The notes under the pieces: generated by a model
The model's database searches: none
What the model was told of the DNA's origin: nothing
The model's input: only the letters and a program-made list of their open reading frames with translations
Made by a program: the position numbers and the translations under genes
In this document: positions 3,889-62,176 of the stretch, piece after piece
How the letters are laid out: each line of letters starts with the position of its first letter
Position numbering within the stretch: the stretch's first letter is position 1
NCBI RefSeq assembly: GCF_020497125.1
Contig: NC_059075.1
Location: 29,052,003 to 29,116,002, forward strand
DNA from: Mauremys mutica
Taxonomy: Eukaryota; Chordata; Testudines; Geoemydidae
Direction: 5' to 3'
DNA: 64,000 bases

Positions 3889-4078
3889 AGAGAGACAAAG
3901 TGGGTGAGGTAATATCTTTTATTGGACCAACTTCTGTTGATGAGAGACAAGCTTTTGAGCTTACACAGAGCTCTTCTTCAGCTCACCTCACTGACAGAAG
4001 TTGGTCCAATAAAAGATATTACCTCACCCACCTTGTCTCTCTAATACCCTGGGACCAACATGGCTACAACAACACTTC
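3889..4078. mobile_element. Fold-back retroposon, copy 1 (TSD 13 bp)
   Basis: Two 49-nt arms, 3889-3937 and 3994-4042, are inverted copies of each other with one mismatch. The right arm runs on into 'ggctacaacaacact'. Near-identical 13-bp direct repeats flank it (3876-3888 and 4079-4091, one difference, ending AACAATACT). Such long duplications point to target-primed retroposition. The space between the arms, read on the minus strand, contains CTGAAGA, then AGAGCT...AGCT, then CAAAAGC, a worn hammerhead-like core. Family name unknown to me. Confidence 0.75.
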
Positions 4079-4212
4079 AAAAAACAATACTGTCATTCAT
4101 TACTTACAGCGATTTGTAAACTCATCCAGGGACATACTTTGTGTCCATCTCTGTCTGCAAAGAAAGTCACACTTGGTGCTGACTTAATAATAAATATTAA
4201 AATTATATACAT

Positions 4213-4226
4213 AGAGAGAGAGAGAG
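4213..4226 (+). repeat. (GA)n microsatellite
   Basis: Seven AG dinucleotide units in intron 1. Confidence 0.8.
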
Positions 4227-7200
4227 GGAATGCACATGTGCGTGTATTTTATATGATGAATGAAATCCTGGCCCCAGTGAAGTCAATAGGGACAACTCAC
4301 ACTCATTTCCATGGAGCCAGGATTTCTGCATGTATAAAATAGACTATGTACACACAGAGAATTGTTCAGATTTTAATTTTTGCAAATTGTTGACTTTGGA
4401 AACTGATAGTCGTCCATGTAGCAGGGAGGAATAGCCCAATATATGTAGCTGTTGCTTGCCTAGTTATAATTCCAATTTCTTTCGATTACTGCTGATTACA
4501 GAGGGACATAGAGGCCTTTCTAGGGAGTCTAAGTGATCAACATCCTAGAGAATCTTGTGTCTGTAGAACTCGAGTTGTTCTTTCTGAACAAGATGTGGTT
4601 GACCTTTTTAAACATGTTGACAGTGAGCGGGTTTAGAGTGTAATTACTATAGGTGGCAATATGTACAAAACAAGGAACACATTGGGGAAGTGCTGAAAGC
4701 CTCATTCTGGTAATTTTTGGCATGGTGTCTGAAGTGTCTCTGAACTGAGAATTCACTGGATAAAAGCTGAATCAGCTTTGTCCATTCGCAGCCTCTGACT
4801 GTTATGTGGTGTGACCTTGATTGTAATGTGGGGTGACCAGTGACCTTTCTGCAGATGGACTCGGAGAAAACAGCAGACTACAATGGACAGTGAGCTTCCA
4901 ATTCAGGCAACCAGGAAACCAGCAAAACTAACTAAAACACATCCCTTTGATATTTTACACTTTATTTATAATATATGTCTTCAAAGCAGTAATTGATGAG
5001 CTAGTCGAGTACTGTTTCAGCACAGAGCAACTGCAGTTTCTTTTTTGGCGAAAACATAGCAAAGACTTAATGTCCTTTACTCTCTGTTCTAAACTTAGTG
5101 GACTCCGAAAGATTACACTGAGATTTTTTTTATTTGTTTTAACATTTGTCTCTTATAAGATTTGTGAGCTCTCCAACTGCAATAAATAATTTATTCATTC
5201 TGCTGGCTGTCCTGCTCTAGAATTCAGATGGCTAAACTAGTTTCTGTAATTGAAAGTGTATATAGTTAAGGAAAATGCAATGACGTGAAAAGAGCAGCAT
5301 TTTGAAAACCATCTCCTTCAAAAGATCAGGCAGTCACCAAAATTTGCATGAGCACCCTTCACACAAGTCACTCAGGTGATTTAATTAAAAATAAATCAAT
5401 AATATTTTAAATAGGTTGTGAAACAGGCAAACCAGAGTTGCCCAGCCTTCCTCTGCAATAGTTTAGAAATTCTACTGCCTGATTCTTGATTGATAACTGC
5501 AATATTTTTAGTGTTTTGTATGAGTCCAGTCAATCAATCTGCTCATATTAGAGTTTTTACTTGCCCACCCCACCCAGTGATAAAAGTATAAGGCTCACAT
5601 ATGCATATAGTAACGCAAAGATCATGCATGGAATAGCCAAGAGTGCCCTTAATGAGGCATGACGTTTGCACATTCTTTGTATTAAACCTTAAACTGAGCC
5701 ATGCGGTATCCATATATGATCCTAGCTCTTTTACCAATATGAATTCCCTTCCATCAAGATTAGACTCAAAGGGAAAATCATCCCAGGTACAAGTTCTCAT
5801 AAGTAAATGGGCCAAGATTTTGGGTCATATTCAACCCTGGTGTAACTTCATTTACTAAGAAGGGATGAATTTGATCCATAATCTTTAGCTAAATAAGCCT
5901 AGCCTCATAACTTTGCCCAGACTAACCAGAATAATTCTGTAGCAACTTTTCTGCTTTTCAGGAAATTAATGAAACACTCTCAGGAAAAAAAGTAGGACAT
6001 ACCCAGAGAGCCTGGGTTCCATGAGCAGGTTGTCAATACTGTTCCAGTTAGGTTACCCACACCTGAGGGAAGTGGAAGAGTTGCCAGAAATAGTGAATTG
6101 CAGTGGTGCAGGTCCAGTCCAAGTCCAAATTTTCCTCTATAGCATTTTCCAGACTTAACCTTTTTCATGTGGAGCACACAGCTAAAAGTCTTTTCCAGGC
6201 CCTCACTGTTCTCTCACTGTCATGCCCCCTTTCTCTCTCCATTCTGTCAATGATATCCATCTGACTTTCTCATTTATCTTCTGTTCCCACCACTCTCTTC
6301 GCTCTTCCTTGCATGCTGCTCTTGGCACATGGACTACTTTACCTGAACTAATCTGTCAGGGTATTACCTCTTCTCATTCCCTCCCCAAGACCTATTTCAA
6401 AACATCCACAAGAAATCAGCCAGATAAGGGTGGCTAGGTGAGGAGCAGTTGATGTTAATTTATTTAAAAAAACAAAAACAAAATAAAACAAAAACCACCA
6501 AGCCTCACAATACTATTAAATGATTTGGAAGCATCAAGTTGTACATTTTGCTGGCCCATCTATTTGCATGAATTATTACTGCTGCCCTGGTCCTCTCTCC
6601 CTTTAGCTTCCTGTTGTTTGCTTTGCTCAATTGTTGGGACTTGTTTTAAATTAGGTTATAAGCATGTCAGGGCAGTGACCACGTTGTTCTATTTATTTGT
6701 ATAGAACCTAGCGCCATTGGGCCCCAATTCTGCTTGAGGCCTTTGAGGGCCACCATAATACAAATAATAGAAAATAATAAACGGGCATCATAAATTAATG
6801 GGGACAAAATCTTATCTCAGAAAATCTGTCTCACTGATGTAAATCTAGAGTGACTCTGTTGTGGCTTCAGTGGAGTTATTTGGGATCTACACCAATGGAA
6901 ATGATATCAGACTGCTAGACAACTGTCATGACAGAAAGTTATTGTCACATCAAGTAGGCAGTAAGGGTTCTTGATTCTCTATTAGTTGATAGCACTTTTT
7001 TTTTCGGTCAGACTATCATCCTTGCACTTGATTCAGAATGTCTCATAGAGACCATCAATTGGGGACTGCACTGTAATCCTCTATTCTCAAATGTGGAATC
7101 CATCCTGCTTTATGTAGTGTGCAGATGAATTGCTGTGATCACGTATTGTCCCACTGAAGTCAGTGGGGCTCTGCACAGGTGCACCTTTGCACCCCCGTGC

Positions 7201-10200
7201 TATGCAATGCAGAACTGGGAACAGACTTTCTGTAGAAAATCCTTGATTAAAAAGAAACAACCTCACAGACATGGACTTTATATAACTGACTATACAAGCA
7301 AGCAATTGCTTTCCAATTTGAATGTATTTATACCACTTTTTGTTTGCTTTTCCATGCAAACAGATTTTTATTTACCTGAGTATTAGGAAATGTCTGACCT
7401 TTATGCAAAATACATTCACGTAAATTGTTCAAACAATTATGAATAATGAAAACATTAATAAAAATCAGCTCTGTCCATAGGTAATTTGAGAATGGAGAAA
7501 GGAGTAAATTCTTTGCCACTGATAGTTCACCTAGTTCTAAGTCCAGGCAACCTGAGAGGCTGACCTGACACATTACTGAATGTATTGAGAAAACCAGATT
7601 CAAAACAAAGAATTCATTTTTTTAGACAGGCCAATGAGACAAAACTTCTCAGCCATGTCCACCAATAGGAAGTGTCACTGAAAGCTCAAAGGACAAGGAA
7701 ACAAATCCTGGTCAAAAAATATCTACAGACACTCGTGACCCCTTGCAAAGGCAATCTTTGGGCAATAAACTGAATGGAAGCCATACTGATATTTGTCTGA
7801 TAATTCCTTGTTTATGAAGTGTTTCTGAAGTTTTTCTGTGGCTAAATTAACATTTGACAAAATGAACAAATGGTAAAGTTTGAGACAGGTCCGTAATTAG
7901 CAGAATCTTCCATAAAAGGTCTAGACTTTTTCAACATACCTTTCACTCCTGTCATCTTCTGTAAAGGCAGCTGACCTTGAATTGTACACATTAGATACAG
8001 AAAAAGATCTATTAGGTCATGTGTTTCATCAGTCTCTGCCAGTGCAGGATTATTCCCTACAGTACATTTTCTACATTTAGGTTTAAAAGACTCACGTAAT
8101 GGCCTTTCATCAGAAGACTAATCGACATCATCAGAAGTAAAGATTTTCCTGAGAATGAGCCAACATTTTTCATATTCTTTTTCTTAATTCTATCTCATTA
8201 CTTCTAGTTAATCCCCTTGTAATAATATTTAACTAATCCTCTCCTATTATAAGGCTTTCACTCCTCTCTGGTTAGTCCTCTTTCAGCTAACCTATACATC
8301 TTTAGAGTTTTTAAAGATCTTTCCCTTTAAGACAACCCCTTGAGTAAGGGTGAAATCTACAATGTTCATCATAATTCCTGAAAATTTCCAGATGCTCTGC
8401 TGTGTGACAAAGCAGCCAAGGGAGTAAAAGCCCACCCCTTTGAATCTAAGCCATTTGCTGAGAATAAATCAGTGTGAGGAAATATAGCCAATATGGACTA
8501 AGGCATCAAAAAATACCCCAAAAACTAAACAGAAATAGGATGCTCCACTGCAGTATGGCTGGACACATATAGGGTTAATCTTGTCTGCAAAATAATTGAG
8601 AAAAATGTCCACTGGCTTCTGAGGACATGCTATTACCAGTCCACAGTAAGACAGCCTCTGGGGATTTAAAAGGCAGTCAATAGTTCTAAAAATAGACAGA
8701 GCCTTTTGGTCTTGGCTGATATTAAATTAGAGTAATAAGTCAATCTAGCCTTCCCATACCATCACTATCATCGTATGTTTATACACAGAGCTTCTTCTAG
8801 GCGGTAAATGAAGAGTTTGCTCCGAATCCCTCTAGTGTTATTCCATCCCATCACTAGTCACCTCCATTTTCCCTGGCTCCCAAGTAATTTTAGTGACCTA
8901 AAGTAAGCACCAAATTGAATACCAGGACAAGGGACGATATCGTTATGAGTTGATAGCCTCCTTAGTTAGCTGACAGTGCGCATTGGAATGATATTGCCCC
9001 ACAACCTCCCTGATGAGTATAAATTTTATCACTATCAACCAAAGCCATGAAAGACCGCAGGTCACAGCCCAGCACAGGTCAGCAGAGTTCAGCATTGTAG
9101 CAAGCTAGTGTTTTGGCTATTGCTGAAACTATCAATACAACAATACTATATATAAGCAGTGTAAGAATAATGAACATGACATATAGATTCTTCAGAGGCT
9201 TGTGAACTCTGGGAGCTCAATTTAGAGAGAAAAAGAAGCCTGCTTAGCAATCAGATTTATCACCAGTTCTGGAGGATTATACAGTTGAGTCACTTTGATT
9301 CATTAGAGTGTTCAAAGAGTCCATGTAAGTTCCTGGAAACTTTTTGGGATGGTCTATAACGGTCTCTTTATTACTTCCTGATTGTAAGGGAGACAGTTGG
9401 AAAGTATTTGTGATTAAATCTGTTTTTTCCTATATTTGGTAATAGATTTTGATAAGTTGTTTAAGGTACTGAATCTTCTGAGGCCTGCTATTCGGAGCCT
9501 CTCTCCAACTCATCACTTTTTCTTTTCCCTTTTGCACTCACTGCTGTTTGAGCTACAAAATACTATTTCCAAATAACCAAAGCCACAGGGTGTATTTAGG
9601 TATACAGTGCACGTGGACTGTAGTGTGTGCACCAGTGGTACATTTGTTAAAACTGCAGTTTTTGTATATGGCCAGAAATAGGAGTACAATGTATGTAACT
9701 TTAATGTGGCCAGAAGATGGCATACACCACACTTTCCCTTTGCAAGGATCAATGCATTTTATTATAATCAAATGACAGTTAATCAAAAATTATTCAATAG
9801 ACCATTACTAATATTACTTCCACATAGTATCCTCTATAAAACCCTGGTTCAGTAAAGCACTCCTATTCAAGACTGCACTTATGTACATGCTTAAATACTT
9901 CACAGGGACTTAAATGCTCTCCTAAATCAAGGTCTAAAAATGCATTTTAGACATTTTTTCTTAATTTCTGAGTCTTATCTCCTCAAAATAGGATCTTGCA
10001 TAGATTCTTATTTTAAATATGAGTTTAAATTAATTTCAAAAGAAGTTGACTTTGAGACCTCTAGAACTAAATACTCATTGCAAGTTATTGGGATGCTTGC
10101 ATAATTTCACTTTTACCAGAGGTTCACCTCTCTTGCTTAATCTTTCTACATTTTCTGTGGTCTCAGATGAGTCATTTTAGGGTTTGTCTATATTTTTAAA

Positions 10201-10680
10201 GTTGATAATTGTATAAATATTAAATTACTATTGTAATGTATCAAGATGCTGAGTATATTTTATACCAGGGGTCACCAAATTAAAAACACGAGGCAACTGA
10301 TGCCTACAGGATCCCACAATGGCCCATAGCCACCTTTATCATTAGCACAGAGTGCATGTCACACAGGCTATAGGTCACAGCATGTGGTATTCCATCTTGA
10401 TTGAAATGAGTGTGTGATTCATGTGGTCCTCAGATAGACAAAGTTTGGGCTGTCTTGTCTTATGTTTACAATAGCCAGAAGTGAAAGGGCTAACACAATA
10501 GATACTGGACATAAAGAAAAGGTTGTTTTCATAGTACAGAAAAGAGATCTAATTTGGCCCTCAGTTCTGCCATAAATCACCATCATCACCATCCTGGCAA
10601 ATCCCAACAGGACTTGGCCTCCTTGCAAACTGAGCACCATCTGGGTCAATCTCTGGCAAAGTTGCCTAAGGTGGTGTGGT

Positions 10681-10797
10681 TAGGGTTAGCAAGTGTGAAA
10701 AATCGGGACAGGGAGTGGAGGGTAATAGGAGCCTATATAAGAAAAAGACCCAAAAATCAGGACTGTCCTTATAAAATCGGGGCATCTGGTCACCCTA
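10681..10797. mobile_element. hAT-type MITE, 117 bp
   Basis: The element starts TAGGGTTAGC and ends GTCACCCTA, and is bounded by a perfect 8-bp direct repeat, GGTGTGGT (10673-10680 and 10798-10805). The inside carries 'aaaatcgggaca' and 'ataaaatcgggg', a palindromic arrangement. An 8-bp target duplication is the hAT signature. Confidence 0.75.
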
Positions 10798-10805
10798 GGT
10801 GTGGT

Positions 10806-12075
10806 TGTATACTCAATCTATGTCCACCGCTGGCAACATCTTGTCATGCCACCGAAGCTTTTGATGCCCACATGATTGCAGGGCTGTCCAGAGGATTCAA
10901 GGGGCCTGGAGTCTGCCGCCGAATTGCTGCCGAAGACCCGGCACTTCGGCGGTGGGTCCCGGGGCGGAAGAACCCCCCACCACAGGTCTTCGGGGCACTT
11001 CGGTGGCGGGTCCCGGAGCAGAAGGACCCCCCGCCACTGAATTGCCGCTGAAGACCCGGCACTGCGGCGGGGGGGGGGGGGTCCTTCCGCCCCGGGACCT
11101 GCCACTGCAGGTCTTCAGGGCACTTCAGCAGTGGGTACCGGAGCAGAAGGACCCCCCGCCGCCAAATTGCAGCGGAAGATGCTCCAGGGGCCCGGGCCCC
11201 GCAAGAGTTTTCCGGGGCCTTCGGAGCCAGTGAAGGACCCTGCTCCAGGGGCCCCGAAAAACTCTCATTGGGGCCCCTGCGGGGCCTGGGGCAAATTGCC
11301 CCACTTGCCCCCCACCCCTTTGGGCGGCCCTGCATGATTGCTGGCTGTGTAGCAGCGTTCCTTGATATACACACTTAGGAATCCTTTGGTTTTCCATTCT
11401 TATAATATGTCCATACAGAGAAAGCTGCCAAAACTGAAACAGTACTGATGGAGGCAGTTGCTGGGTTTGGCTTGGAATAGCCTCATTTCTGATCTTGTCC
11501 AGCAACTTGATATGATGCAGCTGACAAAGACAATGAGAATAGAAAACCTCAAAATAGTGTTCTTCAGCCTTCCTCAGCACCCGTATTTCACTTCTCTACA
11601 ACAGAGCTGGTATAACTGTAGTTCTATAGATCCGCGGCACCATAGCCGGCTTGCTATCACGATGTATCCAGATAGAACACAGAAGGGCCCAAAACATGGC
11701 AGCAGCTGCTGATATACAAGTGTCCAAATATTTCAAGCATCCTCTAGCACTGTCTGTGATGCTGCCCAAATATTTGACTGTTGCCATCTGTTCAATGTCC
11801 CACCCGAACAGGTTAATACTGAAGTGGCTGTTATCTGGAGATAGAGGCTGATTGATGGTAACAGCCAGGGAATTAGTTTTATCTGGATTAATAACCAACC
11901 AGATCAGCCATCAGCTGCAGTGATCTCACCAAACTAAGACAACAAGAAATTGAAGCAGAATGGCGATCAGCTCAATGCCACAGACAGCTGTCACCTCGAG
12001 CTTTCCATCAATCACTCGGTATCAATATTGAACAACAATGGTGACAGACCACAGCCTTGCCAAACTCCCGAGGAG
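10806..12075 (-). pseudogene. Non-LTR retrotransposon reverse transcriptase relic
   Basis: Read on the minus strand, three stretches fit the C-terminal half of a LINE reverse transcriptase. The first is RQGCGLSPLLFN (near 12050). The second is NPDKT...KYLGSI...IYRTTVIPALL (11600-11890). The third is a block resembling the RIRNE...LYGHIIRM region (about 11380-11560) that follows the RT domain in several clades. Frames are broken and stop codons interrupt them. A hAT MITE sits inside (10879-11332). RTE-like affinity is possible, but I cannot assign the clade. It is a dead fragment. Confidence 0.6.
10879..11332. mobile_element. GC-rich hAT MITE, 454 bp
   Basis: It begins CAGGGCTGTCCA and ends TGGGCGGCCCTG, with a perfect 8-bp target duplication CATGATTG (10871-10878 and 11333-11340). 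The interior is rich in CCGCCG and GACCCGGCACT repeats and a G run (11069-11081). Several chance open frames exist on both strands because of the base composition; none resembles a transposase. Confidence 0.85.
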
Positions 12076-14368: not shown

Positions 14369-14445
14369 GTTTGTGCAGACTACCTCCTTTTGTGCTGGCT
14401 CCAGCAGCTGAGATGGAGACCCCTGGAATGTCCATCACCGAGACA

Positions 14446-14995: not shown

Positions 14996-14998
14996 GAG

Positions 14999-15949: not shown

Positions 15950-18780
15950 TCTCTGGGTCCCAGCTACATCTGGGGTGAATTTCACCCAACTTGAACTAGT
16001 GGATTCTGGTGCATCTAGTAATTTAATAGATGTTGGATTCACTAAGGCAACACAACTTCTGGTGAAATGGAAGCCCACTCTGGATCTAAACTGAAATCTG
16101 AGATCAGAGACTCTGCATTTCAGATTATGTCACCTTGCTTTCTGATCATGCTTGGTATTCCTTAGTTCTCAGTGCATGATCCACACATCTCATGGAAGAA
16201 GCTCAAGATATGATTTGAGTTGAGCTACTGCTGACAATCATGTCTAGGTGAGTCAAGGGCCAAGGAAACAAGAACCAGTGCTGAGAAACCTACTGCCTTC
16301 TGTGCCCAGCAGATTCAAGGAGCCAACAGCTCATTAATCCCTGTGAAATATCAAGAGTTTGTTGACATATTTGATTAAAGGAAAGCTAATATTTTGGCCC
16401 TGCACAGACCTACAATTGTCCCATCCATCTCCACCCAGGGGCTAAAATTCCATTTGGCTGGATTTACTCCTTATCAGAGCCAGAATTCAGGGCCCTACAA
16501 GAATACCTTGACAAGAATCCTGCAAAGAACTTCATCCGTCCAACCACATCTCCTGCTGAGGCCCCAGTTTTATTTGTGAAAAAGAACCTTGTACCTTGTA
16601 CCTTTATATGGACAAGTAGGATTTGCCACTGATCAAAGAGCTGTTGGAAAGGATCTGTTCCACCAAGGTATTTACCAAACTCAATCTTCATGGGTTTACA
16701 ACCTAGTCCATATCTGGGAGAGCAACAAATGAAAAACAGCATTTTGCACCCATTATGGACATTTTGAATATCTGATTATGCCTTTTGGTCTCTCCAATGC
16801 CCTAGCCACATTCCAGCACTTTGTCAATGATATTTTCAGGGATGTTTTAGACCAGTTCGTGGGGATCTACCTAGATGACCTCCTCATCTTTTTGGAAAGT
16901 CAAACCCTTCATGATCAACACTTCCAGATGTAAGCTCGAATGTCTCCAAGTGTACAGCCTGCATGGAAAACCCAAGAACTGTGAGTTTGACAGCTTTTCT
17001 CTTGACTTCTTAGGCTGTGTCATTTCTTCTGATGGATTAGGTATGGACCCCTGCAGCATGTACACAATTGTGGACTGGGCAGCCTCAAGGAATGTCCGTG
17101 ATGTCCTGTGCTTCCTGGGGCTTGCCAATTTTTACCAAAAAATTATCAAGGACTTTTTGAAGGTGGTGACCCCAATTACCCTGCTGCTCCAGAAGAATAC
17201 CACATTTACTTGGATTCAGGAGGCCCAAGTTGCCTTTAATAGATCAAAGGAAGCATTTATATCAGCACCCATCTTGGTACATCTGGACCTGGCAAAATCC
17301 TTCATTGCTGGAGGAGACACCTCCAATTATGTGATCAGAGCAGTTTTGTCACAACAGCACAGGCACCAGAATGTACTCCTCTCTTGTGCATTTTATTCCC
17401 AGAAACTCATGGCCATGAAAGAAAACTATGAATTCTGTGACAAAGAACTAGTGGCCATCAAGGCTGCTTTTGAGGAATGGCATCACCAAGATTCACATTT
17501 CCTGGTCCAGATATATACAGATCATAAGAACTTGGACTACCCGTGAACTTCAAGGGCTCTTAACCAGCATCCAGTGGTCCCTTTTTTTTATTCAGGTTCA
17601 GATGAACACTAACCTGTCATCCATATACCCAGAATGGTAAATCATATATACTGGACTGCAAGGGTGAGTACTTGGACAAGAAAAATAAGGGTTCTGAACT
17701 TACCAGAGTATGAAACCCTGCCGTTTCACCCATGTGATGATGAACAATGACTTGCTTTCTTTTGTGAAGCCCTTCCTATCCCACAATCCATTTGTAGTAA
17801 ATGTCAAGCTTATGTCAACCTGTACAGACTTAGGTCCTGACTCAAAATTCTCTTCCAAGAATAGGTTTCTCACATTTAGGGACTAGATCTATGTCCCTAA
17901 TGGTGAACCACGTCCAGCAATACTCCAGGTCTGCTACAATTTGCCCCTGGCTGGCCATTGGAAAATATTGCGGCTGTTCTCTCGATATTTCTGGTGGCCA
18001 AAACTACATCTGTATGTTAAGTCCTATATTGACTCCTATGATGTCTGTGCTCAGATGAAGATTCCCCCACACTAACATCTTGGTGCTCTGATTCCACTGC
18101 TGATTCCCTCCTTCCCTTCACCAAATTCACATACAATAATTCTGACCACTGATCAACCTGCCAGAGTCCTTTTTATGACAAATATGGTTTCCACCCTTGG
18201 TTTCACCCATCCGTGCCACAAGCCTCCTAGGTACTTGCAGTTTCCAACCTTTTCAAAGACCTTCACTGCATCCAGGAAGAACTGAAAACCCACCTAGAGT
18301 TAGCCAAAAGAGATTAGAAGCATTACATTGACCTCCATCAGTGGGCAACCCCTCAAATTGCAGTTGGAGATAAAGTATGGCTCCAACACAATACCTTGAC
18401 TCTACTCAGCCTTCAAGGAAGTCAGATTACTGATATCTTGTCCAATTCTGGGTGATCCAGCAGATCAGCCCTGTGGCCTTCAAACTCCAACTGCCTAGGG
18501 CGATGAAAATGCACCCAGTATTTTACATCTACTTGCTGAAAAATTACACTGACCACTCCTCCCTCGGATGAGTACAACTGCCATATCCACCCATCGTAGT
18601 CCAGGGGCCTGAGGAATATCTAGTGAAGCAGATCTAGGCCTCCAAAATTCTCTCAAGGAAAACCCATGTACTCTGTTGATTGGGAGGGTTATGGGAGCCA
18701 GACAAAAATATACATGCACCTGACCTGCTTCAAGAATTCCATTGGTCACACCATGATAAACTTGGCTCAAAGACACCTGG
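15950..18780 (+). pseudogene. Gypsy pol remnant (PR, RT, RNase H, IN, chromodomain)
   Basis: Motifs in order: aspartic protease DSGAS (16002-16016), RT catalytic YLDD (16868-16879), the RT connection block ending in FLGLANFYQK (near 17115), an RNase H start with the usual DASD changed to GDTSN (near 17320), TDHKNLDY (about 17517-17540), an integrase zinc-binding relic with FWWPK (near 17990), and chromodomain residues WEPDKN with ELLQEF-like sequence (18690-18740). One frame is open from 16875 to 17546; elsewhere stops and frameshifts are frequent. Not functional. Confidence 0.75.
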
Positions 18781-21596: not shown

Positions 21597-22573
21597 CAAC
21601 ATTCAGGGAGAGAGGACAGTATAGGGACAGGACAGGCAGTTATTAAATGGTTGATGCTAGAATTGCACAGTGTGCAATCACTGTGAAATCATTAAAGTTG
21701 AAAGACTAGAGAGGCCTCAGCAAGAAGCATCAGCCCAGGGAGATTACAAGATCTTTATGTTTACAAGATAATGAGTCTGAACCCTCAGGCACTTTGAAAA
21801 GATTTAGGTCCTGATTCTCAAAGCTCTTTATCAAGCTTCCCACGCAAAGGCTACAAACTGCTAGATACAATTCTTAAAAGCACTTTGCAGTAGAACTGTT
21901 AGTTGCTAGAGGTTTAAGTAACTCCCAAATCATTCTAAAATTGCTATTGTGGTTTGAGACTACTTGTGAAAGTTCAGTAAGTACTAAGTTCTTTTGTACA
22001 TTCAGTTATTGTGGGCCTTGAATGTCCTTATTATGGTTAATAGTAGGAGTGTTTGAGGGGATGATGTGAGCATTAGATTTGCATTTAGTGTCTGTTTAGA
22101 CATTTGGGTATCAGATCAATGTGGCAAATGTTAAGCTCCGCCTACCATTTTCTTATTGAATAATTACATTAACTATACGTTTTGTGCAGTCAGTTTGTAA
22201 ACGTAGTGACCAAATGTCAGACATAATTACAGGCAAATGTTGTATTTTCTCTGATGGAATAATGATCAGTTAATTCCCTCCACAGAAAATCAGGGCAAGG
22301 TTTCTAGCACAGCTTTACAGACCCAAAGAGTTAAGATAATTCAGATAACGTTCACTGAGCAGAAACTAAAACACACCTTTCGGCAGTCCTTGAATATTGT
22401 GGAAGCATGGGAGATTCTCAGTGATGCATTGCTGTAAAGATAACACTTCATTTGAGATGCTGGGGGAAGAATTCACAAATCGAGGACCAAGGCTTTAAGT
22501 CCCAGCTGCTACAAAATGCTCAGTGAAGTCAATGGGAGTTTTTCTTGAGTAAAACTGACTAAAAAACAAGGTT

Positions 22574-22793
22574 GTTGTAGTAATCAGGATTGTCCCAGGA
22601 TATTAGAGAGACAAGGTGGGTGAGGAAATATCTTTTATTGGACCAACTTCTGTTGGTGAGAGAGAGAAGCTTTTGAGCTTACACAGAGCTTGTGTTCATG
22701 TTTGGAGAAGAGCTCTATGTAGCTCGGAAGCTTGTTTCTCTCACAACAGAAGTTGGTCCAATATAAGATATTACCTCACTCACCTTGTCTCTC
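22574..22793. mobile_element. Fold-back retroposon, copy 2 (TSD 14 bp)
   Basis: Same family as copy 1. The left end keeps the fuller terminus (GTTGTAGTAATCAGG...GTCCCAGGATATTAGAGAG). The arms pair through CTTTTATTGGACCAACTTCTG and its complement near 22750-22775. Flanking direct repeats of 14 bp, TAAAAA(A/G)CAAGGTT, lie at 22560-22573 and 22794-22807. The + strand has a worn hammerhead-like core (GGAGAAGAGCTC...AGCTCGGAAGC, about 22712-22740). Confidence 0.75.
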
Positions 22794-24183
22794 TAAAAAG
22801 CAAGGTTCACATTGTGATTGACTCCTGCAAGAGTGTGCAAGGAAGAGAAAGGGGGCAAAAAGGTTCTTTGTTCTGTTTGCACCCCTTATTCAGCATCAGC
22901 AACATCCGCTGTCCCTCGACTAGCTACCCCCAAAAGAGGTGGCACGGTATCACCACCACACATGCCCCAGTAGTAGAGCCAGACAGCCCTATAAGGGAGT
23001 GTGAGTGTATTGGTTTGGCTGATGTTCAGTTAGTTAAACACCCACTAGTTAACAATTAGCTGAAATAATTGCTAATGTGTGAACTGAAGCCATGTATGCC
23101 AAGGATTGATTTGTTGACACTTGCATGTGCATAAATGGTTAGCTCTTTACAGCTCATGAACTCAGCAAAAGTCTGTCCCAAGCTCTCAGATGAGATAACA
23201 ATACCATCAATTCAGTGCTCAAAGCCAAAATGAATTACATCATTGCAGGGGACTCCACATCTCTAGGCTATAATTGTACTATTTTGGTTTTCAACAGGAA
23301 ATCTTCTCCTTTCTCTCTGGAACCCCTGGAGTTGAATTTCCGGCCACAATTATGGGCCTAATTTACTAATGAGTTGAGCTAGTGAAAATCCTATTTAAAA
23401 AAAAGACATCCAACCACAAACGCTTCTAGAAATGGAGCAGCTTTTTCGCATCTGTGTCAGCCCAAACATACAGTTCAGTTTGTGAAAGCTTGCACAGTTC
23501 ATTCAGTGGGCCTTGAGGAAGGCTAAATAGATTTGGCCACATTAGTACAGATTGTCACAATATGCATTTGTAGCCCAGGTGGATCTGAAGGGCAACTCTT
23601 AGGCTGAACCCCCTCCAGCGTCAGAGGAAGTTTCAATGCAGAGCTCCAGCTAAATATTGTAGTTTGGGCTGCTCAGTCATTTATAGCATAATCCTTCTTA
23701 CTAGTCATTTCCTGTAGAGAAAAACTGCAAGATGAAATCTAAATTACTGTGAGGCAAAAGACTGAGGAACAGTTTGGTTTATGCTTTTCCACCTGCCTAA
23801 GTCCTCGCAGAGGCCTCTGATGGGAGAGAGTCCTCCCGGAGGTGGGAGGGATATTGCAATTGCAGAAACAAGTTCAATCTCCTCCCTGCTAGAGGACCCA
23901 GTGGGGACTCCTGCATCTGCAAGAGCAGGAGGTGCTGCGGAGAGAAAAGGCCTGCTTAGGGCAGTCAAGTAAGTAATGATCCAGCATATGCCCTGAGCAG
24001 CCATCTACAGAGCCTTGACTTTCAACTAAAGCTTCCTTTCCCCAGTGAAACACCAAGGTCCCAGTGTCAGTCATCTCTTAGGGAGAATCCCTCTGGGGTG
24101 CAGGGGAATTCACCTCCCTACACAGCTTGGGTGAATCTGACTCCATAGTTATTCTGACCATAACTGTATTGTTTTCAATAGTG

Positions 24184-33501: not shown

Positions 33502-33742
33502 ACCAAGTTGGAAATTTTAATCTAAATAACTTGATTACACAGCAAGTCAATGACAGAGCAGATAACAAAACACTGATCTGATTCCCACGGCCTACGCACT
33601 GGACCAACCTGTCCCCTCTCTGCAGTACCCTGTACCAAACATAGTGTCACCATTGCATTACTCCAGTTTTACACTGATGCAACCATGATGGAAAACTGGG
33701 TAATACAGTGATAAATCAGGCCCATAGTCTTCATTAGACTTA

Positions 33743-34002
33743 GGGCTAGTCTACACTGGTAACGCTTTAACATGGCTTGTGTGATCGCGGTGCAGCATTG
33801 GGAGAGAGCTCTCCCAGTGCTCTAAAAAAACCACCTCCATGAGGGGCATAGTTACCAGTGCTGGGAGCACGGCTCCCAATGCTGGGGCACTGTCTACACT
33901 GGCACTTTACAGCGCTGTAACTTGCTGCACTCAGGAGGGTGTTTTTTCACACCCCTGAGCAAGAAAGTTGCAGCGCTGTAAATTGCCAGTGTAGACAAGC
34001 CC
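33743..34002. mobile_element. Harbinger-like MITE, 260 bp
   Basis: Ends GGGCTAGTCTACACTGG and CCAGTGTAGACAAGCCC, with TTA repeated on both sides (33740-33742 and 34003-34005). TTA is the preferred target of PIF/Harbinger transposases. AGCGCTGTAA occurs inside near both halves. Confidence 0.8.
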
Positions 34003-34924
34003 TTACTAAAGCTATTGTATTTCTGTGATGAGGCAACTGAATCCTGGCTCTGAACTTTGCTGATGTACATTCTAATTTGTTCTGGACAGCAATCAGTGGG
34101 GAGTGATCTAATCAGGAGAAAAGCCGAGGCGGTCCAGTTGCTGAGAGAGAATTTGATGGATAGGTATGGACTATTCTCAGCGAGAGCCTGCTGATTAGGA
34201 AAGTGTCTGACGGAGGAAGATCTGGGGGTTATAGCTGATAGCGAACTCAACATGAACATCCATTGTGAAATTGCCGAAGATAAATGCCATAGCAGAATAT
34301 AAACACAGAAGTACAATATTATGTGACCCTCCCTAAAAGTCACTTCTTCCATGAGGCCTATATTCCATAATACTTCCCCAAACAGTTTGCTGGAAAATGG
34401 CCTTCACTTCACTCTCCCCACAAATCACCTCAAAACCAGCAAAATTACCCATCAAACCCCAGAACTGGAAACTAACAAGAGACGTGGGGCCATATTCAGC
34501 TACTCTTAAGTGCACTGAGTAACACCTCACTCCTCAACTAGTTCCCCTAGTTTCAATCACTACCCAACATGAGTAAGGGAGGCAGAATCTGACCCTTACA
34601 TTGTAAGCTCCTCGGTACTATACTATCCGTATTGTAATACATCCATAAGGACAAAAGATAATCTGAACGGAAATAAAATCTTACTCTCCAGTAATTCTAA
34701 AACAGATTAAATAGTCACCATAATTGCCTAGCACCAGACCCACCGTACACCAGGCAAGGCAACACATTACTTCCTTCTGTCTGGTCTAGGCATTTATACT
34801 GTGATCACTGTCATGGGATCAGAGTCCCTATTTGCATCTAGGCCCCAAGTCAGTAGAAGTTTTCTGCCTCCACTCCTGTAATGTAATTATGGACAAATAC
34901 AATGTTTGCCTCTCAATGACAAGG

Positions 34925-54091: not shown

Positions 54092-54175
54092 CCTGAAGAG
54101 CTCTGTGGAGCTCAAAAGCTTGTCCCTTCCACCAACAGAAGCTGGTCCAGTAAAAGATATTACTTTCAACATGGA
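54092..54175 (+). repeat. Fragment of the fold-back retroposon family
   Basis: CTGAAGAGCTCTGTGGAGCTC, then AAAAGCTTGTCCC, CCAACAGAAGCTGGTCC and GTAAAAGATATTAC match one arm of the elements at 3889 and 22574. CTGAAGA and the stem GCTC/GAGC are intact; the GAAA box is changed. Confidence 0.7.
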
Positions 54176-54729: not shown

Positions 54730-55540
54730 TTTCTTCAGATAGAGGCACAGAAATCAGAACCACTCCAGTTCCAATCCTTGCTCTGACACTGACTTTCTCT
54801 GTAGGCTTGAATGAGCGACAAGAGGCTACTGGTGCCCTAGTCTCTCTGAGTTGAACGGGAGTAGCTGTGGAGTGGATGCACTGCAGCCAGGCACACCGGG
54901 AGAAGTTACCCTATGAGTTTCTAAGCAGTGCATGTTGGTGTGACTGCTACATGAGCGCTCTCCACTCCATGCCTGGCTGGTACAGAGGACACCATGGTTA
55001 TGGCCCTCCCTCCTCATGCCAGTTCAGGCAGTTAGAGCCTGTACTGGCACTAAGAGAGAGCATAGCCTTTGTTCCCGTCACAGTGTAGCTGATCCCCCTA
55101 CAGTCAAGTTGGAAAAAGCAGAGGCTCCTTGTACTGTTTCTCCTTGTGTACCTGAGATGGTATTAGGAACAATCTGGCCCTTAACAGCTCAGTTTCCTCA
55201 TCTGTAGACAGGGCCAGCTTTAGGACGTGCTGGGCCCAACTTGAAAGAGCTGCCGCCGAAATGCCGCCGAAGACAGTGAGCGGCCACTGAAGATAGCAGC
55301 GGCAATTCAACGGCAGCTCAATCGGTTGCCGCTGTTTCCGGCGGCACTTCGGCAGAAGGTGTGGGGCCCCTCTTCCAGACGCTGTGGGGCCCGATTCCTG
55401 GGAATCGGGGGAATCACCCTAAAGCCAACCTTGTCTGTAGAACAGGCATAAGAAAATTTACCTACTTCCCAGGGGTGTCATGGGGATGCATTACCTGATG
55501 CTTATTAATGTATTTGAAGGGTACAAGTGTCAAGTATTAT
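54730..55540 (+). repeat. MIR-like SINE pieces, partly split by a hAT MITE
   Basis: AGATAGAGGCACAGAAATCAG and TTGCTCTGACACTGACTTTC (54738-54799) and, further on, CAGTTTCCTCATCTGTAGA (55190-55208), then ACAGGCATAAGAAAATTTACC (55442-55462), follow MIR order. The last two are separated only by the hAT MITE at 55209-55433. Confidence 0.55.
55209..55433. mobile_element. hAT MITE, 225 bp
   Basis: Ends CAGGGCCAGCTTTAGG and CCTAAAGCCAACCTTG; perfect 8-bp duplication TCTGTAGA (55201-55208 and 55434-55441). The interior is GC-rich with GCCGCCGAAATGCCGCCGAA. Confidence 0.9.
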
Positions 55541-55701
55541 TATAATGTCATATGTTCTTTAAAATCTTGCACATGCTTATGGCACTCTAGCATTCCTAGA
55601 TTGTTAGTTCTTTGGCAGAGGGGTCATGTTTGTAAAACACCAGGAAGAGTAGAATCTTGGTCCTGATTGGGGCGTCTGGGCATTACAGCTATATTAATAT
55701 G

Positions 55702-56405
55702 GGGGTTGGCTACACTTGCAGATGTAGAGCGCTGGGAGTTAAACCAGCCTTCGGAGACCGCAGCAGGGAAAACACCGCCATGTGTTTACACTGTCAGTTG
55801 CAAGCGTGGCCACATTAGCAGCTCTTGCAACGCCACAAAGATCAGTGCATTGTGGTAGCTATCCCAGTGTGCAAGTGGCTGCAGCGTGCTTTTCAAATGA
55901 GGGGGTGGAGTGTGACTGGGAATGTGTTGTGTGTATGTGGGGGGAGAGTGTGTCAGCATGCTGTCTTGTAAGTTTAGACAGCAGCAGACCCCCTCTCCCC
56001 CCCCGCATCTCTCTCTCACATACACTCACAGCATTCCACAATAATGGTTTGCTTTGTCCCGGAGCAGATAAGCATGCCGCCTGTCAGAAACAGAGCTTTG
56101 AAAGGGGATATCCGCATGCCTGCAACCAAGTTCAAAACAATGACCAGAGTGGCCACTTGACTTCAGGGGATTATGGGATGTTTCCAGAATCCAATCACAG
56201 CGCAGTAATGCAACACATTGTCCACACTGACACCCGGGCATTTCAGCCGGGCACAGCAAGCTTTATGCTTCTCGTGGAGGTGGATTACCAGCTCTCCAGC
56301 TGCAGAGTCCAGGTGCTCTATGTGCCTTGCCAGTGTGGACACCTCAGAAGTTAGGACACCCGGGGCTGATTTAATGTGCTCTAACTTGCAAGTGTAGCCA
56401 AGCCC
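55702..56405. mobile_element. Harbinger-like MITE, 704 bp
   Basis: Ends GGGGTTGGCTACACTTGCAG and ACTTGCAAGTGTAGCCAAGCCC; ATG flanks both sides (55699-55701 and 56406-56408). Same family as 32317-33147 (shared GAGCGCTGGGAGTTAAA, TATCCCAGTGT and CAAGTGGCTGCA). Non-coding despite long chance frames. Confidence 0.72.
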
Positions 56406-57523
56406 ATGGACCATTGCTGCTATTATACACTAATAAGTCTTGCCATTGTAACACCAACAGACCCCGGTTGTCGGCGGGCGGGATCAAGCCTCGACCTCTG
56501 GAGCTTAATGCATTAGCCTCTACAGCATGAGCTAAAAGCCAATTGGCTGTTAGCTAAGGCTGTAGAGCAGACTCATTTAACTCTCATTCTTTCTAAGTGG
56601 TCTGGGTGCCACTAGATGGGACAGAACACCACGCCCAGGAGGTGCGTGGGTTACACTATCACCATACATACCTTGTTTTGTGCAATTAGCACAAAATTAA
56701 AAAATTCTAGCTAACCCATCAGTTACAGGCAAAAAAGAGAAAAGTCTACATAAAAAACATCACAGCAATGTAACCTCTGATTCCTTAAAAGAAAAGCCTA
56801 TGTGGCATGAGATCAGTCACCACAGTGCAGCCCACTATGAATAAAAAATACAGATATATATTTCCCTCAAAGTGTGAATAAGGGAAAAGTCAGTAGCAGA
56901 CCCACTAGCATCGCTGTGCCAGTGGACATTGTTCCAAGTAATCTTACTGCAAGAACCTTCTGGAAACGTGGGCTCACGTTTGGTTGGGCCCACAAGTGAA
57001 GTGAGTTGTACAGCCTTCACCATCAATGGTTGCTATGTCATGTTTGTCTGTACCATGCAGTTTGACATGGTTAGCAGTATTGGTGCTAAGAGGAAGCTGA
57101 GCAATGAAATAACAGGAGTCAGATGGGTCTCAGGTGCAGTAAGAGTTAAAAGTTACATGCAGGAAAGCTTGGACAGAGATTTATTTGCACAGCGCTTGGT
57201 TCGACTGTATTAGTCCCTCACTTTCATAAGAATCAAATTTAAAGCAGAAAAAAAGAAGAAAAATCCTGTTGTATTGAGACTTAAATCTCATTTGGTGGTT
57301 TCAAAGGGCCAGATTCAATCAAACTCAGTCTGGTGTCTGCCTGTTTCTGTGAGGAGAAGCGGGGGAGTGACCATTCTCAATGCAACAGTAACTCAACAAC
57401 ATTTTTACTGAATCTGGCTCAAAACTGTCTCTCTTGCTTTTGTTTTATTTTTAATGCTGGAAGTTCATGAGAGTATCAGCTTTAACTTTACAATTCACAA
57501 CATACAATACAATGTATTAGTGC

Positions 57524-57871
57524 CAGGGCCGGCTCTACAGTTTTCGTCGCCCCAAGCAGCGCACCGAATTGACGCCGCGGACGGTGGGGGCAGTCCGTGT
57601 GCCCTTAGGGCGGCAGGCACGTTTCCTCGGCGGCAGCAATTCGGCGGCGGCTTCTATGTTTAGCTGAAGCCGCCGCAGACAGCTAAACATAGAAGCTGCT
57701 GCCGAATTGCCGCCGCCGCAGAAACGCGCCTGCCACCCTAAGGGCACAGGGACTGCCCCCGCCGTCCATGGTGGCAATTCGATGTGCTGCTTGGGGGCAA
57801 AACAACAGGGACTGCTACCCCTTGCCGCCCCAAGCACCAGCTTGGAATGCTGGTGCCTGGAGCCGGCCCTG
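57524..57871. mobile_element. Palindromic GC-rich hAT MITE, 348 bp
   Basis: Ends CAGGGCCGGCTCTAC and GGAGCCGGCCCTG. The two halves are inverted copies: CAGCTAAACATAGAAGC at the centre pairs with GCTTCTATGTTTAGCTG, and the CCCTAAGGGCAC blocks pair too. Flanking 8-mers ATTAGTGC and ATCAATGC match at six positions, a worn target duplication. Confidence 0.8.
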
Positions 57872-58674
57872 ATCAATGCTTTTCATGTGAAAAATTATTG
57901 CCAGAGTCAAATCTGCATGTGGCTCTCTCTTGGCTTCCATTAAAATCAGTGGACTTGCACCAGTGTAAACTTGATGTAAGGAAGATTGTAATCAGTTCCT
58001 CTGTTTTCATTTCTAATAGCACAGGGTATCAATCAGCTTTAATGCTTAGAACACCAGTGAGATGTGCCAGACAAATTATATGCTTAAAAAGACATGCTAG
58101 ATCAATTATATGCTTAGAAGGACATATATGCGACAGATTTCCAAAGGGGCCTCAAAAATTGTGAGTGCAGATTGGATTTCTTGTACATAGTTTTTCACAG
58201 CCTAGTTGTGCACCTGAGAAATGTATATTTGTGCATGCAAATAGTATTTGTGCATGCATATTGTGATGTTCAACACCCAATGATTGGCTATCAGTACCCT
58301 ATCTGTATATGCACGAATTCTTGGCATGCACTGAGCACCAGGAGAGCTCACACACTGATGTGTCATGCTTGTAATGAGGTTATATATTTTGTGGCAGCAC
58401 CCTCATATTTTAGACAGAAAGGACACCTCAGGAATGTAAAGTTGCTATTTAGTTTCTTTTTATTTTCTTGCTGACAGAGTGGTAGATACTTTCTTTCATG
58501 AAAGATATTTATCATCTGACATTATTCAATGTCATCTGAAAATTATTTAAGAACTGGCCAAATTTAAGGACTGGCCCTTACATACCAAGAGCAGCCATAA
58601 CCTGTAACATCTTTCATTCAGGAATTTCTAAGAAATGTACAGAACACTAGTTTGAACTCAGAACAATACATGTA

Positions 58675-58770
58675 GTAGATGTTGTTCTATGCGTTTTGCT
58701 GATGGGGAAACTGAGGCACAGAGCATTTAAGAGACTAGCTAGTCACACAGCCAGTAATTATTGGTGATGT
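58675..58770 (-). repeat. MIR-like SINE fragment
   Basis: GATGGGGAAACTGAGGCACAG followed by AGTCACACAGCCAGTAATTA is the reversed 3' half of a MIR-like SINE. Confidence 0.65.
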
Positions 58771-60487
58771 ATTATAACAGCTATACCAGCATATCTGAGA
58801 AAATGAACAGTTCAAATTCAAAAACATTTGTAGTTATTTTTCTAGTATGTCTCTGTAAAGTCTTGTCACTCCTGCCCTTTCCCTTGAATGGGTGCGGGTG
58901 CATCCTGTTTAGTAAATGCAGATGAGTCAAGAAAAATCAGTAAATAGCTTAGGATGCAGGGAGAGGGAGAATGGACATTTGACCCTCCTGGAGTTACTCA
59001 AATTGCTGGTTGAACTCAAGATAATTCAATGTGAGCTTGTTGTCTAAGCAGTGCTATGTGGCCCACATCCTCAGCTGGTGTAAATCAATGTAATTTCAAT
59101 GAACTCAGTGGAGCTATGCCCATTGAAATCATCTGAGGCTCTTGTTGTCTCTTAAACTCATTTCTACGTTCCCTTACAATGTAAGCACTTAGATCATAGT
59201 ACAACAGTAAGATTGGGGGGAGGGGCAAAGAGGGGAAATAGACAAGTAAGGAGGATGAGATGAGGGAAGGAGGGAGGGTGATGCATTACATAATCCTATT
59301 TCTGTAACTCACTAGTATGTCATCATCTTACTAAAAGAGGACTAAGATATTTATATAAAAGTAAAAAAAAATACTCCTGACTTCTTATGTAAAGTTAAGA
59401 GACAGCAGCTATCTCCTGAGACGTGATGGGAATAGCCAGCCTGAGCATCCCAAGTCTCTGTGCCATCGGATGCTCCAGGTATTGGACTTCCTAGAAGATT
59501 ATTTCAGATTATTTTTCTGTGTGTGAAAAGTCTGCATTAAAAATCTATAGCACATCCTCACTCTCTGAGATGACCTTTCAGCAGCCCATTTTGTCCAAGG
59601 AAGTGACTTCTCAGGTCTGCTGGATTTGTGGTAGGATGAATAACTCTGTTCTCAATTGTATATCAAAGGGTTTGCGGACAAAAAATACTCTTGCTAAATC
59701 AGCAGGAAAAAGCAGGCCCATATTGGTTAACAATTTCACATAACAGATGTTTTGCTCATTCTTGTAGCTTAGCAAAGTTACAACAGTTACATATACGCTC
59801 CATAGCACAGGGGAAAGATACCCTAAATACTTACATATGCATTTCCTTAAATAACTGGCACATTCACCTTCAAATCATATTCTAATAGAACAAAACACTA
59901 TGTTGAAATAAAGTGACTGGTCATATTTAAACTGACAAACAAGAAAATTTATAAATTAGGTATTCCAGAGGGTCTAATATCCAACATATGACATTAAATA
60001 CCTTACATGCTGCAGTACCCAGGCACTGGGTGGCTTCAGGATGTACTAAATAATCAAGGGAACCTTGAACTGCCTTTCTACATTTAGCTAAATGAACCAG
60101 TGGTACTCACAGGAAAAGCACTGCTTGTTATGGGTTGGACTGAGTAAATGACATAGACTAGGGGCAAGACGTATTCTCTTGGTAGAGGCAGAATGTATGC
60201 TAAAATGCAATGGAAAAAATATGTATCATCTATTAGAATAGCTTTTAGTAGGTTGATGAGAGAGTTAAAATTAATCAACAATGTGGCCAATGCAGGAATA
60301 TCATTAGTCAAGGTTTGGAAGAAGCTCAAGCTAACTCATCTAGCTAGAAGACTGGGACATAGGATTGTGATGATGGACATTGTGTAAGCAGAAGACAAAC
60401 CCTTTATGAAAGCAGCTTCAATGTACACTGCCACCCAGAACCCCATTTCCAGGACCCAAAACCAGATCCCTCCAACATGGAAGGGAG

Positions 60488-60749
60488 CAGGGGCGGCTCC
60501 AGGCACCAGCACGCCAAGCGCGTGCCTGGGACGGCAAGCCACGGGGTGCGCTCTGCCGGTCGCCACGAGGGCGGCAGGCAGGCTGCCTTCAGCGGCATGC
60601 CTGCGGAGGATCCGCTGGTCCCGCGGCTTCGGTGGACCTCCTGAAGGCAAGCCACCAAATCCGCGGGACCAGGGACCTCCCGCAGGCAAGCCGCCGAAGG
60701 CAACTTGCCTGCCGTGCTTGGGGCGGCAAAATACCTAGAGCCGCCCCTG
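60488..60749. mobile_element. GC-rich hAT MITE, 262 bp
   Basis: Ends CAGGGGCGGCTCCAGG and CCTAGAGCCGCCCCTG; flanking GAAGGGAG (60480-60487) and CAAGGGAG (60750-60757) differ at one base. The interior has inverted GC-rich blocks (CCGCGGCTTCGG and related). Confidence 0.85.
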
Positions 60750-60807
60750 CAAGGGAGTCAGTCCATAGAAAATGCAGTTCCTCAAGGAGTAGTACTTTGA
60801 CTCGGAG

Positions 60808-60866
60808 ATGAATTTGGAAGGAAAAGGAAGTGGAAAAGGAATTTGGAAGGATTTCGAAGTGGCCAG
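60808..60866 (+). repeat. Imperfect tandem duplication
   Basis: GAATTTGGAAGGA is repeated about 30 bp apart, each copy followed by a GAAGTGG-containing purine-rich stretch. A local duplication. Confidence 0.6.
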
Positions 60867-61194
60867 AAAATCAAAAAAACAGTAAGTCCTAGAAAACATA
60901 TTATAGCCTGAGTACCTCAAGTTTTTCCACACAAAGTTCATCTATAATTTTATGGTCATCATAAATGGATTGGCTGAGTGCTCTGCCATCTTTAATCACA
61001 GCACGAAGGCCAATGAATGTGTTGCTTGGCTTGTATTTCTAAGCACAGTACTATGGATTTAGTCTCCTCTTGCACCTGGTAGTGAGGTTTGTGGTGGACC
61101 CACTGATCACATACTAAATATTCTGAACAACTAGTCTTACTCTCGGCATGAAACTTCATGCAGTGTCATTTTTACCTGTGAAGAAATGTGAGAA

Positions 61195-61290
61195 AGACAA
61201 GGTAATTTTGGTAATATCTTTTATCGGACCAACTTCTACTGGCGGAAGGGACAAGCTTTCAAGCTACTCAGAGCTCTTCCCCAGGTCACC
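61195..61290 (-). repeat. Fragment of the fold-back retroposon family
   Basis: Contains GTAATATCTTTTATCGGACC and AACTTCTACTGG, then GACAAGCTTTCAAGC and GAGCTCTTCCCCAGG. On the minus strand the hammerhead-like core reads CTGGGGA, stem AGAGCT/AGCTT, then an intact GAAA. One arm only. Confidence 0.7.
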
Positions 61291-61940
61291 TGTTGTTGTG
61301 TTATTTCATTTTGACCAAAATTTACTGAACCTGAACTTAACCAAATTGAATTAAAATTGAGTATTGTCTAAAAAGAAAATTATCCTTACTTCCAGCAATC
61401 CATGAAATTTGGCTATTAACACACGTCGGACCCACATCTTTGCTAACCCAACCTACGTTTATCATATTTCATGTGTAGACACATTCATTCCACTGTGAAT
61501 AAGAATGTTGTTGTCTTAATGTAAATTAAGGCGGAATCCAACCCTTAATTTACATAAAAGCTGTGTGTGAAGGGGACTGGATATCTCAGGGCATTGGGTA
61601 ATGGTATAAATACCTTTTAGCTCTAAATTGTTAGTTCAAATCCAGACTATGGGCTCTACTGTGCAATGACTTTCATGGGATTACTTGTGAGAGTGTGTTG
61701 CATAACCAAGCCCTAAAGGCGTAATCCAAATCCCACTGGACTCAATGAGACCCATTCCATTGACTTCAATGGCACAATGGGGTCTTAGTCTGCACGTACT
61801 GAAAGTTGGTGCCATCTGATGGCTGTTTAATAGTCAATGTGACATGAGTTTGGTGGTCCTGGTACATAAGTGACTGTCTCATCAAAAATCACTGCTACCA
61901 CTTGTTAGCAGTTTCATTGGACAGATTAAGGATTGAATGG

Positions 61941-62176
61941 TGTCAAGTATCAGAGGGGTAGCCGTGTTAGTCTGGTTCTGTAAAAGCAGCAAAGAATCCT
62001 GTGGCACCTTATAGACTAACAGACGTTTTGCAGCATGAGCTTTCGTGGGTGAATACCCACTTCTTCGGATGCAAGCAGACCTTGCATCCGAAGAAGTGGG
62101 TATTCACCCACGAAAGCTCATGCTGCAAAACGTCTGTTAGTCTATAAGGTGCCACAGGATTCTTTGCTGCTTTTAC
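61941..62176. mobile_element. Fold-back retroposon with a perfect 96-bp palindrome
   Basis: Arms 61980-62075 and 62081-62176 are exact reverse complements with a 5-nt spacer. The left unit runs further, to TGTCAAGTATCAGAGGGG and GTAGCCGTGTTAGTCTGG. A perfect 12-bp duplication, AGGATTGAATGG, flanks the element (61929-61940 and 62177-62188). Each arm has a hammerhead-like core: on the + strand CCGAAGA (62088-62094), stem GTGGGT/ACCCAC with loop ATTC, then GAAA (62112-62115). The perfect arms imply a recent insertion or gene conversion between arms. Confidence 0.85.

Follow-up and report, generated by a model that had tools for sequence, protein, structure and literature searches.

The genome of the turtle Mauremys mutica contains, on contig NC_059075.1, short elements made of two inverted arms that lie between direct repeats, and the question raised by this locus is how such fold-backs are inserted. 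Three of them are present in the stretch of 64,000 nucleotides analysed here (the window; assembly GCF_020497125.1, positions 29,052,003 to 29,116,002). A preliminary description had taken them for retroposed units of the type of Penelope-like elements (PLEs), each with an added and shortened inverted copy, and not for DNA transposons. From the window and from further copies in the same 2.48 Gb assembly, the source of all the genome copies, we consider that the fold-backs are non-coding units, probably inserted by the machinery of a PLE bearing a GIY-YIG endonuclease, which would prime on two target strands at two sites of the element, the resulting complementary DNAs (cDNAs) being joined head to head.

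The window fold-backs belong to two families (Table 1). Family A comprises those at 3889 (A1) and 22574 (A2) and two single copies (A3 and A4), and family B the one at 61941. The inverted arms are 92% identical in A1 (3885-3944/3987-4046), 94% in A2 (22603-22655/22744-22796) and 100% in B (61978-62075/62081-62178). Read toward the tail, the unit consists of a hammerhead-like core and a body of about 60-90 nt, and it may finish at either of two outer ends. The inner one (site 2) lies about 30-40 nt upstream of the outer one (site 1), and the stretch between them is the tail; the inverted terminal arm and the 30-40 bp tail of PLEs are found in both families. By eye, the body sequence GUUGGUCC pairs with the tail sequence GGACCAAC in family A, and GUUAGUCU with AGACUAAC in family B, two of the eight pairs being changed on both sides between the families. 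Site 2 falls in the loop of this stem, and site 1 lies beyond it by 19 nt in A1 and 25 nt in B.

The preliminary description had remarked that one arm is always truncated at its outer side. This holds for the three window copies, where one arm carries the tail and the other does not, but not as a random truncation, which was discarded because the outer ends cluster in both families: the short arm of the genome copies ends at a fixed second site. With A1 as query, 40 loci were scored of 4297 candidates (A1 itself and 39 others, which were retrieved), and together with A2 they gave 41 measured fold-backs. All 41 have two opposite arms, and 40 combine a tailed arm, ending between reference positions 121 and 132, with an untailed one ending between 90 and 108; the exception, L043, has ends 99/127 by one measurement, which is tailed plus untailed, and 127/128 by another. 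Apart from L043 the tail measures 17-40 nt, with a median of 30 nt in the 41 copies. A second sample of 40 loci was picked with a 60-bp core lacking the tail, and it contained 17 fold-backs and 23 single copies. Fifteen of the 17 are tailed plus untailed; L090, whose short arm is cut at reference 47, and L091, with ends 116 and 122, are not classifiable. Since the single copies end at either site (13 tailed, 10 untailed), the pairing expected by chance is 0.49, and the binomial tail is 2.4e-5 for 15/15, or 9.4e-4 for 15/17 with L090 and L091 as misses. As A1, L010 and L011 occur in both samples, family A amounts to 55 distinct fold-backs, of which 52 are tailed plus untailed. In family B (401 candidates, 40 loci scored, 20 retrieved) the window copy and L048, from a grid chunk, were added, and the pairing is present in all 22 fold-backs; the tail measures 38 and 39 nt in two copies. 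Twenty regular-grid chunks of 10 kb contained two matches to family A and six to the family B profile, and no match to the window units appeared in four scans of viral contigs and two of prokaryote genome contigs.

This pairing bears on the idea of self-priming, in which the end of a single cDNA (or of an antisense RNA) would fold back as a primer for outward copying, leaving as second arm a shortened version of the first. Such priming, on an antisense template, has been proposed for the head-to-head arms of PLEs in a rotifer, and palindromes occur at inverted PLE junctions (PMC3846280). The family B arms indeed mirror each other like a hairpin: their 5' limits coincide to within a few nucleotides, with 1-8 nt between the arms, and one short arm starts 12 nt in. 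However, self-priming predicts an end at random or a run through the tail, whereas the untailed end falls in a narrow zone, 85-103 in all 22 B copies and 90-108 in 40 of 41 A copies, and the same zone is the 3' end of 10 of the 23 single copies. Furthermore, among the 17 core-picked fold-backs the arm that extends further 5' is the untailed one in 8 (including L091) and the tailed one in 6, and in 3 both end within 4 nt. In those 8 (7 of the 15 classifiable) the difference is at least 5 nt, with the palindromic hammerhead region blurring the inner ends, so that neither arm is contained in the other. In addition, the tail corresponds to the segment that separates two independent reverse transcriptase (RT) start sites described for an anole PLE (PMC11167929). 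We therefore consider self-priming unlikely, and in place of a unit with an added inverted copy the arms are better seen as two cDNAs of one insertion.

At the three window sites the direct repeats were confirmed as 13 bp with one mismatch, 12-15 bp and 12 bp perfect; the 14 bp noted for the copy at 22574 falls within the measured range (15 bp with one mismatch, some of whose bases can be read as arm). Only 5 of 2100 random position pairs of matched spacing in the window score as high as the weakest of the three. Among the 14 window inverted repeats listed, a flanking repeat score of at least 10 was reached by the three fold-backs and by 10998-11110, which lies inside a GC-rich repeat array, and by 2 of 150 random window pairs. 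Across the genome, 21 of the 22 family B duplications score at least 9, with lengths of 11-15 bp, and the remaining one scores 8; none of 462 mismatched flank pairs reaches 9. In the A1-picked set 19 of 41 score at least 8 (9-16 bp, most commonly 13 bp, in 8 copies), against 6 of 400 mixed flanks. In the core-picked set the same score was obtained for 7 of 17 fold-backs and 3 of 23 single copies, the 5' ends of the latter being unmapped, with a null of 9/600. The duplications vary in length, as expected of PLEs (about 8-15 bp), and show no single fixed length of 8, 3 or 2 bp.

Inverted arms with flanking duplications would also be expected of a fold-back or miniature inverted-repeat transposable element (MITE) moved by a transposase, and at 57524-57871 the window does contain a MITE-like element, with an imperfect 8-bp repeat next to it. 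Nevertheless, the extreme ends of the fold-backs are not mutual inverted repeats, the tail being on one side only, the duplications vary from 11 to 15 bp, and coding relatives with the same ends bear a PLE-type endonuclease end. No transposase-bearing relative with these ends turned up, although no search aimed at one was made. On the ends and the duplications the DNA-transposon explanation was discarded, and we leave it hardly any probability.

As regards the coding relatives, a grid chunk (L050) carries a frame of 217 residues directly upstream of a B-like unit. It is 83% identical over 206 residues to a turtle protein, P0003, with a GIY-YIG domain (1.3e-6); 43 protein relatives were found, and the best matches are turtle proteins. 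Six of these relatives were scanned: P0003 and P0004 match PF01541, P0038, P0040 and P0043 match PF00078, and P0005 neither, the RT and GIY-YIG matches falling on different proteins. The autonomous partner sought from the preliminary description has a counterpart in relatives that share the ends of the short units, carry a GIY-YIG-type endonuclease end and group with GIY-YIG or RVT_1 proteins. The 3' unit of the coding copies is identical to B at 99 of 126 aligned bases (79%), and both have the same two ends. With family A the alignment is gapped and weak (75/114); no coding partner of family A itself was found, and this family is linked by its architecture.

Of 27,643 genome candidates for coding matches, 150 were scored. 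Their open frames reach 917 residues, and at four places they stand in tandem at a spacing of 2970 bp, the arrangement of full copies (pseudo-long terminal repeat, pLTR) expected of PLEs and not seen for the short units. Many tie in score and have long open frames, and some belong to the 2970-bp tandems (for example C1:48597776/48600746), which is a sign of recent activity in the turtle. From these matches 12 head-to-head pairs were chosen by eye. Eleven are readable at both ends, and all 11 are tailed plus untailed, with duplications of 12-15 bp (9 perfect, 2 with one mismatch), lengths as scored, some bases of which are possibly shared with the element ends; none of 110 mismatched flanks scores at least 9. 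Sixteen further coding copies were taken as single: 10 untailed, 4 tailed and 2 with neither end. Three of the four tailed ones have one common flank and look like copies of a single insertion, and L144, called untailed, continues into tail-like sequence. Read further upstream, L147 shows on its 5' side a tailed arm in inverse orientation, next to which at least 10 bp of the 3' flank are repeated, and L148 shows inverted arms of 1.5 kb (99%), the other outer end lying beyond the stretch, while L146 has no inverted copy of the unit.

Two observations on coding copies may be added. Upstream of the coding copy in L146 there is an imperfect repeat array with many inverted matches (about 1758-2226). 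In L132 and L137 the T run at site 2 measures about 25 and 15, against the usual 8, as if the RT had stuttered at the untailed start site.

The core of the unit resembles a hammerhead ribozyme. A relaxed descriptor, written after the motif had been seen (C-Y-GANGA, stem II, GAAA, a short linker ending in UH, stem I), found only two sites on both strands of the 64 kb, namely the two B arms, against a mean of 0.03 per window in 60 dinucleotide shuffles. A looser scan gave 16 window sites, with the two B arms first and A4 third, and also recovered the anole motif; site 7961, outside the elements, ties with A4, and the remaining sites score lower, at shuffle level. All 21 family B fold-backs tested have the motif on at least one arm, and of 39 coding end pieces 36 have it (L115, without element end, excluded). 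Stem II is compensated, GUGGG/CCCAC in B and GUGAG/CUCAC in the coding unit; a linker of two nucleotides replaces stem III, and there is no real helix III. Apparently, a minimal hammerhead-like motif, with C at core position U4, is kept in family B. One single copy (L059) has the canonical CUGAUGA. Family A has the canonical CUGAAGA where preserved, and its GAAA is mostly lost. At the C-G that precedes AAA, counted across arms, the first position reads 37 C, 10 T and 1 G and the second 18 G, 26 A, 3 C and 1 T, which is the pattern of CpG decay. In 30 of the 41 A1-picked fold-backs the hammerhead is in the untailed arm alone. This excess is attributed to the query, because the core-picked sample splits 8/6/3. 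Stem I of the hammerhead was considered as the annealing point of the cDNAs, as suggested by the A1-type hinges, but this was not general in the core-picked sample.

A short non-coding unit with such a motif could also be a retrozyme-like or short interspersed element (SINE)-like unit that passes through a circular RNA, the hammerhead being needed to form the circle; moreover, metazoan retrozymes may depend on PLEs (PMC8969392). The motif, without a real helix III, is not a classical type I hammerhead. Besides, in each of the 22 B copies the two arms, with inner ends at 0-12, extend 5' beyond reference 39, where the cut is predicted, so that the B RNA that was copied would not have been cut there. 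The B ends are common to the coding PLE copies, and ARAGORN reported no tRNA gene in the window, a weak test since the bacterial code was used. We regard this explanation as very improbable.

Several of these traits have counterparts in known systems. In Penelope of the rotifer Adineta vaga the inverted pLTR is at the 5' side, as here, and a 31-bp tail, like that of the turtle, is optionally present on one inverted pLTR; target duplications are 8-10 bp in the cases given, and some insertions have none (PMC3846280). In contrast, most turtle copies examined are short and non-coding, and they are numerous, the first-look candidates amounting to 401 to 4297; almost all the measured fold-backs carry the tail on one arm and one only. 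A similar layout is that of Poseidon of Anolis carolinensis (PAc), whose minimal hammerhead core has a linker of 2 nt where stem III would stand. Its stem AUGGCC/GGCCAU lies at +51 and +94, counted in the reading frame, and its RT starts fall at +111 to +118, 12-19 nt 3' of the stem, a stem/start layout comparable to that of the turtle; a tail of 30-40 bp lies between two start sites (PMC11167929). Turtle families A and B read AAG at the position of the PAc start codon and keep only about 130 nt of the corresponding region. Metazoan type I hammerhead retrozymes are short, non-coding, hammerhead-bearing and flanked by duplications longer than 4 bp, like the turtle units, but they have a classical type I hammerhead, whereas the turtle units have a minimal motif, head-to-head arms and a tail (PMC7229834).

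Starting from what is established here, namely the outer ends, the tailed and untailed pairing, the duplications and the ends that B shares with coding copies, the following course may be proposed. A GIY-YIG endonuclease would make a staggered cut in the target (the anole PLE cuts both strands in vitro), and both 3' ends of the cut would prime reverse transcription of the element RNA, with site 1 of the AC-rich stem-loop region used on one strand and site 2 on the other. Both cDNAs would extend toward the 5' end of the RNA and be joined there head to head, in an order and by a joining that we infer, and fill-in of the staggered ends would give the target duplications. The family B templates would have been uncut, because both cDNAs run past the predicted hammerhead cut. 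Two independent starts, on the two strands of one cut, account for the duplications as well as for the fixed positions of the outer ends and their pairing. In the anole study both target strands were cut and extended, and RT started internally at two neighbouring sites, one on either side of the tail (PMC11167929).

It should be noted that a number of points weigh against two-strand, two-site priming by a PLE. In the same anole work the start site of the enzyme in vitro did not differ between the two strands, so that no fixed rule of one site for each strand emerges there (PMC11167929). The tailed and untailed classes were defined after the ends had been seen, and the A1 and B queries themselves contain the tailed and untailed layout; a second tail would not lower the match to the query, but absence of the tail from both arms would. 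Three of the 55 family A fold-backs were not scored as tailed plus untailed (L043, L090 and L091), and one of the 12 coding pairs, L115, is unreadable, its right end not having been found. Duplications are undetectable in 22 of 41 A1-picked and 10 of 17 core-picked family A fold-backs, which we put down to age. The preference in hinge position seen in the A1-picked set is absent from the core-picked one, and later deletion at the palindrome centres could mimic some hinges. Arm divergence, tried as a test of self-copying, was uninformative, being 13.0% within a copy and 13.1% between copies, values that do not tell one template from two. Pfam gave no GIY-YIG match on the L050 frame itself. No window site matches the strict core CUGANGA, C standing at U4 in both B and the coding unit, Rfam gave no hammerhead match, and self-cleavage of the motif bears on the argument as a predicted property.

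Table 1. Coordinates and strands of the fold-backs, single copies and motifs of the window.
Feature	Position	Strand	Remarks
A1 left target duplication	3876..3888	none	13 bp, one mismatch to 4079-4091
A1 untailed arm	3889..3984	-	decayed hammerhead-like core (GAAA reads AAAA) and body
A1 untailed arm, outer end	within 3889..3984	-	site 2, TAGAGAG
A1 tailed arm	3987..4078	+	body and tail; begins downstream of hammerhead core
A1 tail	4044..4078	+	absent from A1 untailed arm
A1 right target duplication	4079..4091	none	partner of 3876-3888
A2 left target duplication	22559..22573	none	15 bp, one mismatch; 12-15 bp depending on arm-end call
A2 tailed arm	22574..22701	-	tail about 22574-22602
A2 untailed arm	22703..22796	+	arm without tail
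A2 right target duplication	22793..22807	none	overlaps arm end by up to 4 nt
A3	54095..54165	+	truncated single copy of family A unit
A4	61186..61286	-	single family A unit without tail, stops near site 2; no convincing target duplication
B left target duplication	61929..61940	none	12 bp, perfect
B tailed arm	61941..62075	-	tail about 61941-61977
Hammerhead-like motif, B tailed arm	62037..62068	-	complete by relaxed descriptor; core position U4 is C
B untailed arm	62081..62176	+	outer end at site 2 (GCTTTTAC)
Hammerhead-like motif, B untailed arm	62088..62119	+	sequence identical to tailed-arm motif
B right target duplication	62177..62188	none	partner of 61929-61940

Other elements were observed in the window. 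The open frame 16875-17546 (+) has two RNase H-like RT domain matches (PF17919, 9e-21; PF17917, 1e-15), and from where these domains occur we take it to be a remnant of a long terminal repeat-type retroelement. The MITE-like element at 57524-57871 is palindromic, with ends CAGGGCCGGC/GCCGGCCCTG, and the adjoining 8-bp repeat matches at 6 of 8 positions; it is hAT-like. A further inverted-repeat element, at 33742-34003, has ends AGGGCTAGTCTACACTGG and no clear duplication, and the GC-rich stretch 10944-11214 contains nested direct and inverted repeats.

Regarding the host group, a review stated that Penelope was unreported in amniotes (PMC5753468), which is contradicted by later papers (including PMC11167929) and by the present data. 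For Testudo graeca 139,606 Penelope elements covering 30.0 Mb have been published, a mean of 215 bp each computed from these totals, and PLEs are third in the repeat listing of M. mutica. In the portions available, the turtle assembly papers report Penelope totals only, with no account of how the copies are built. PLEs of turtles, inverted pLTRs, tails and minimal hammerheads are already known. The near-obligate pairing of a tailed with an untailed arm appears to be new: no statement of such a rule was found in the literature searched, which did not cover the PLE survey, PLE-hammerhead and small-hammerhead-variant papers.

The two-armed layout offers a clue to how PLEs, a poorly understood class of elements, insert. 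If one start site per strand holds as a rule, PLEs would cut both strands and prime on them asymmetrically, which was not found described in the literature searched. It is about an even question whether, in general, PLE integration is a built-in reaction of two cDNAs, with one fixed RNA site for each strand, in which case the "optional tail" would mark which strand and site were used. Many young turtle copies can be read base by base at both ends, so that hundreds of insertions are available for testing this rule.

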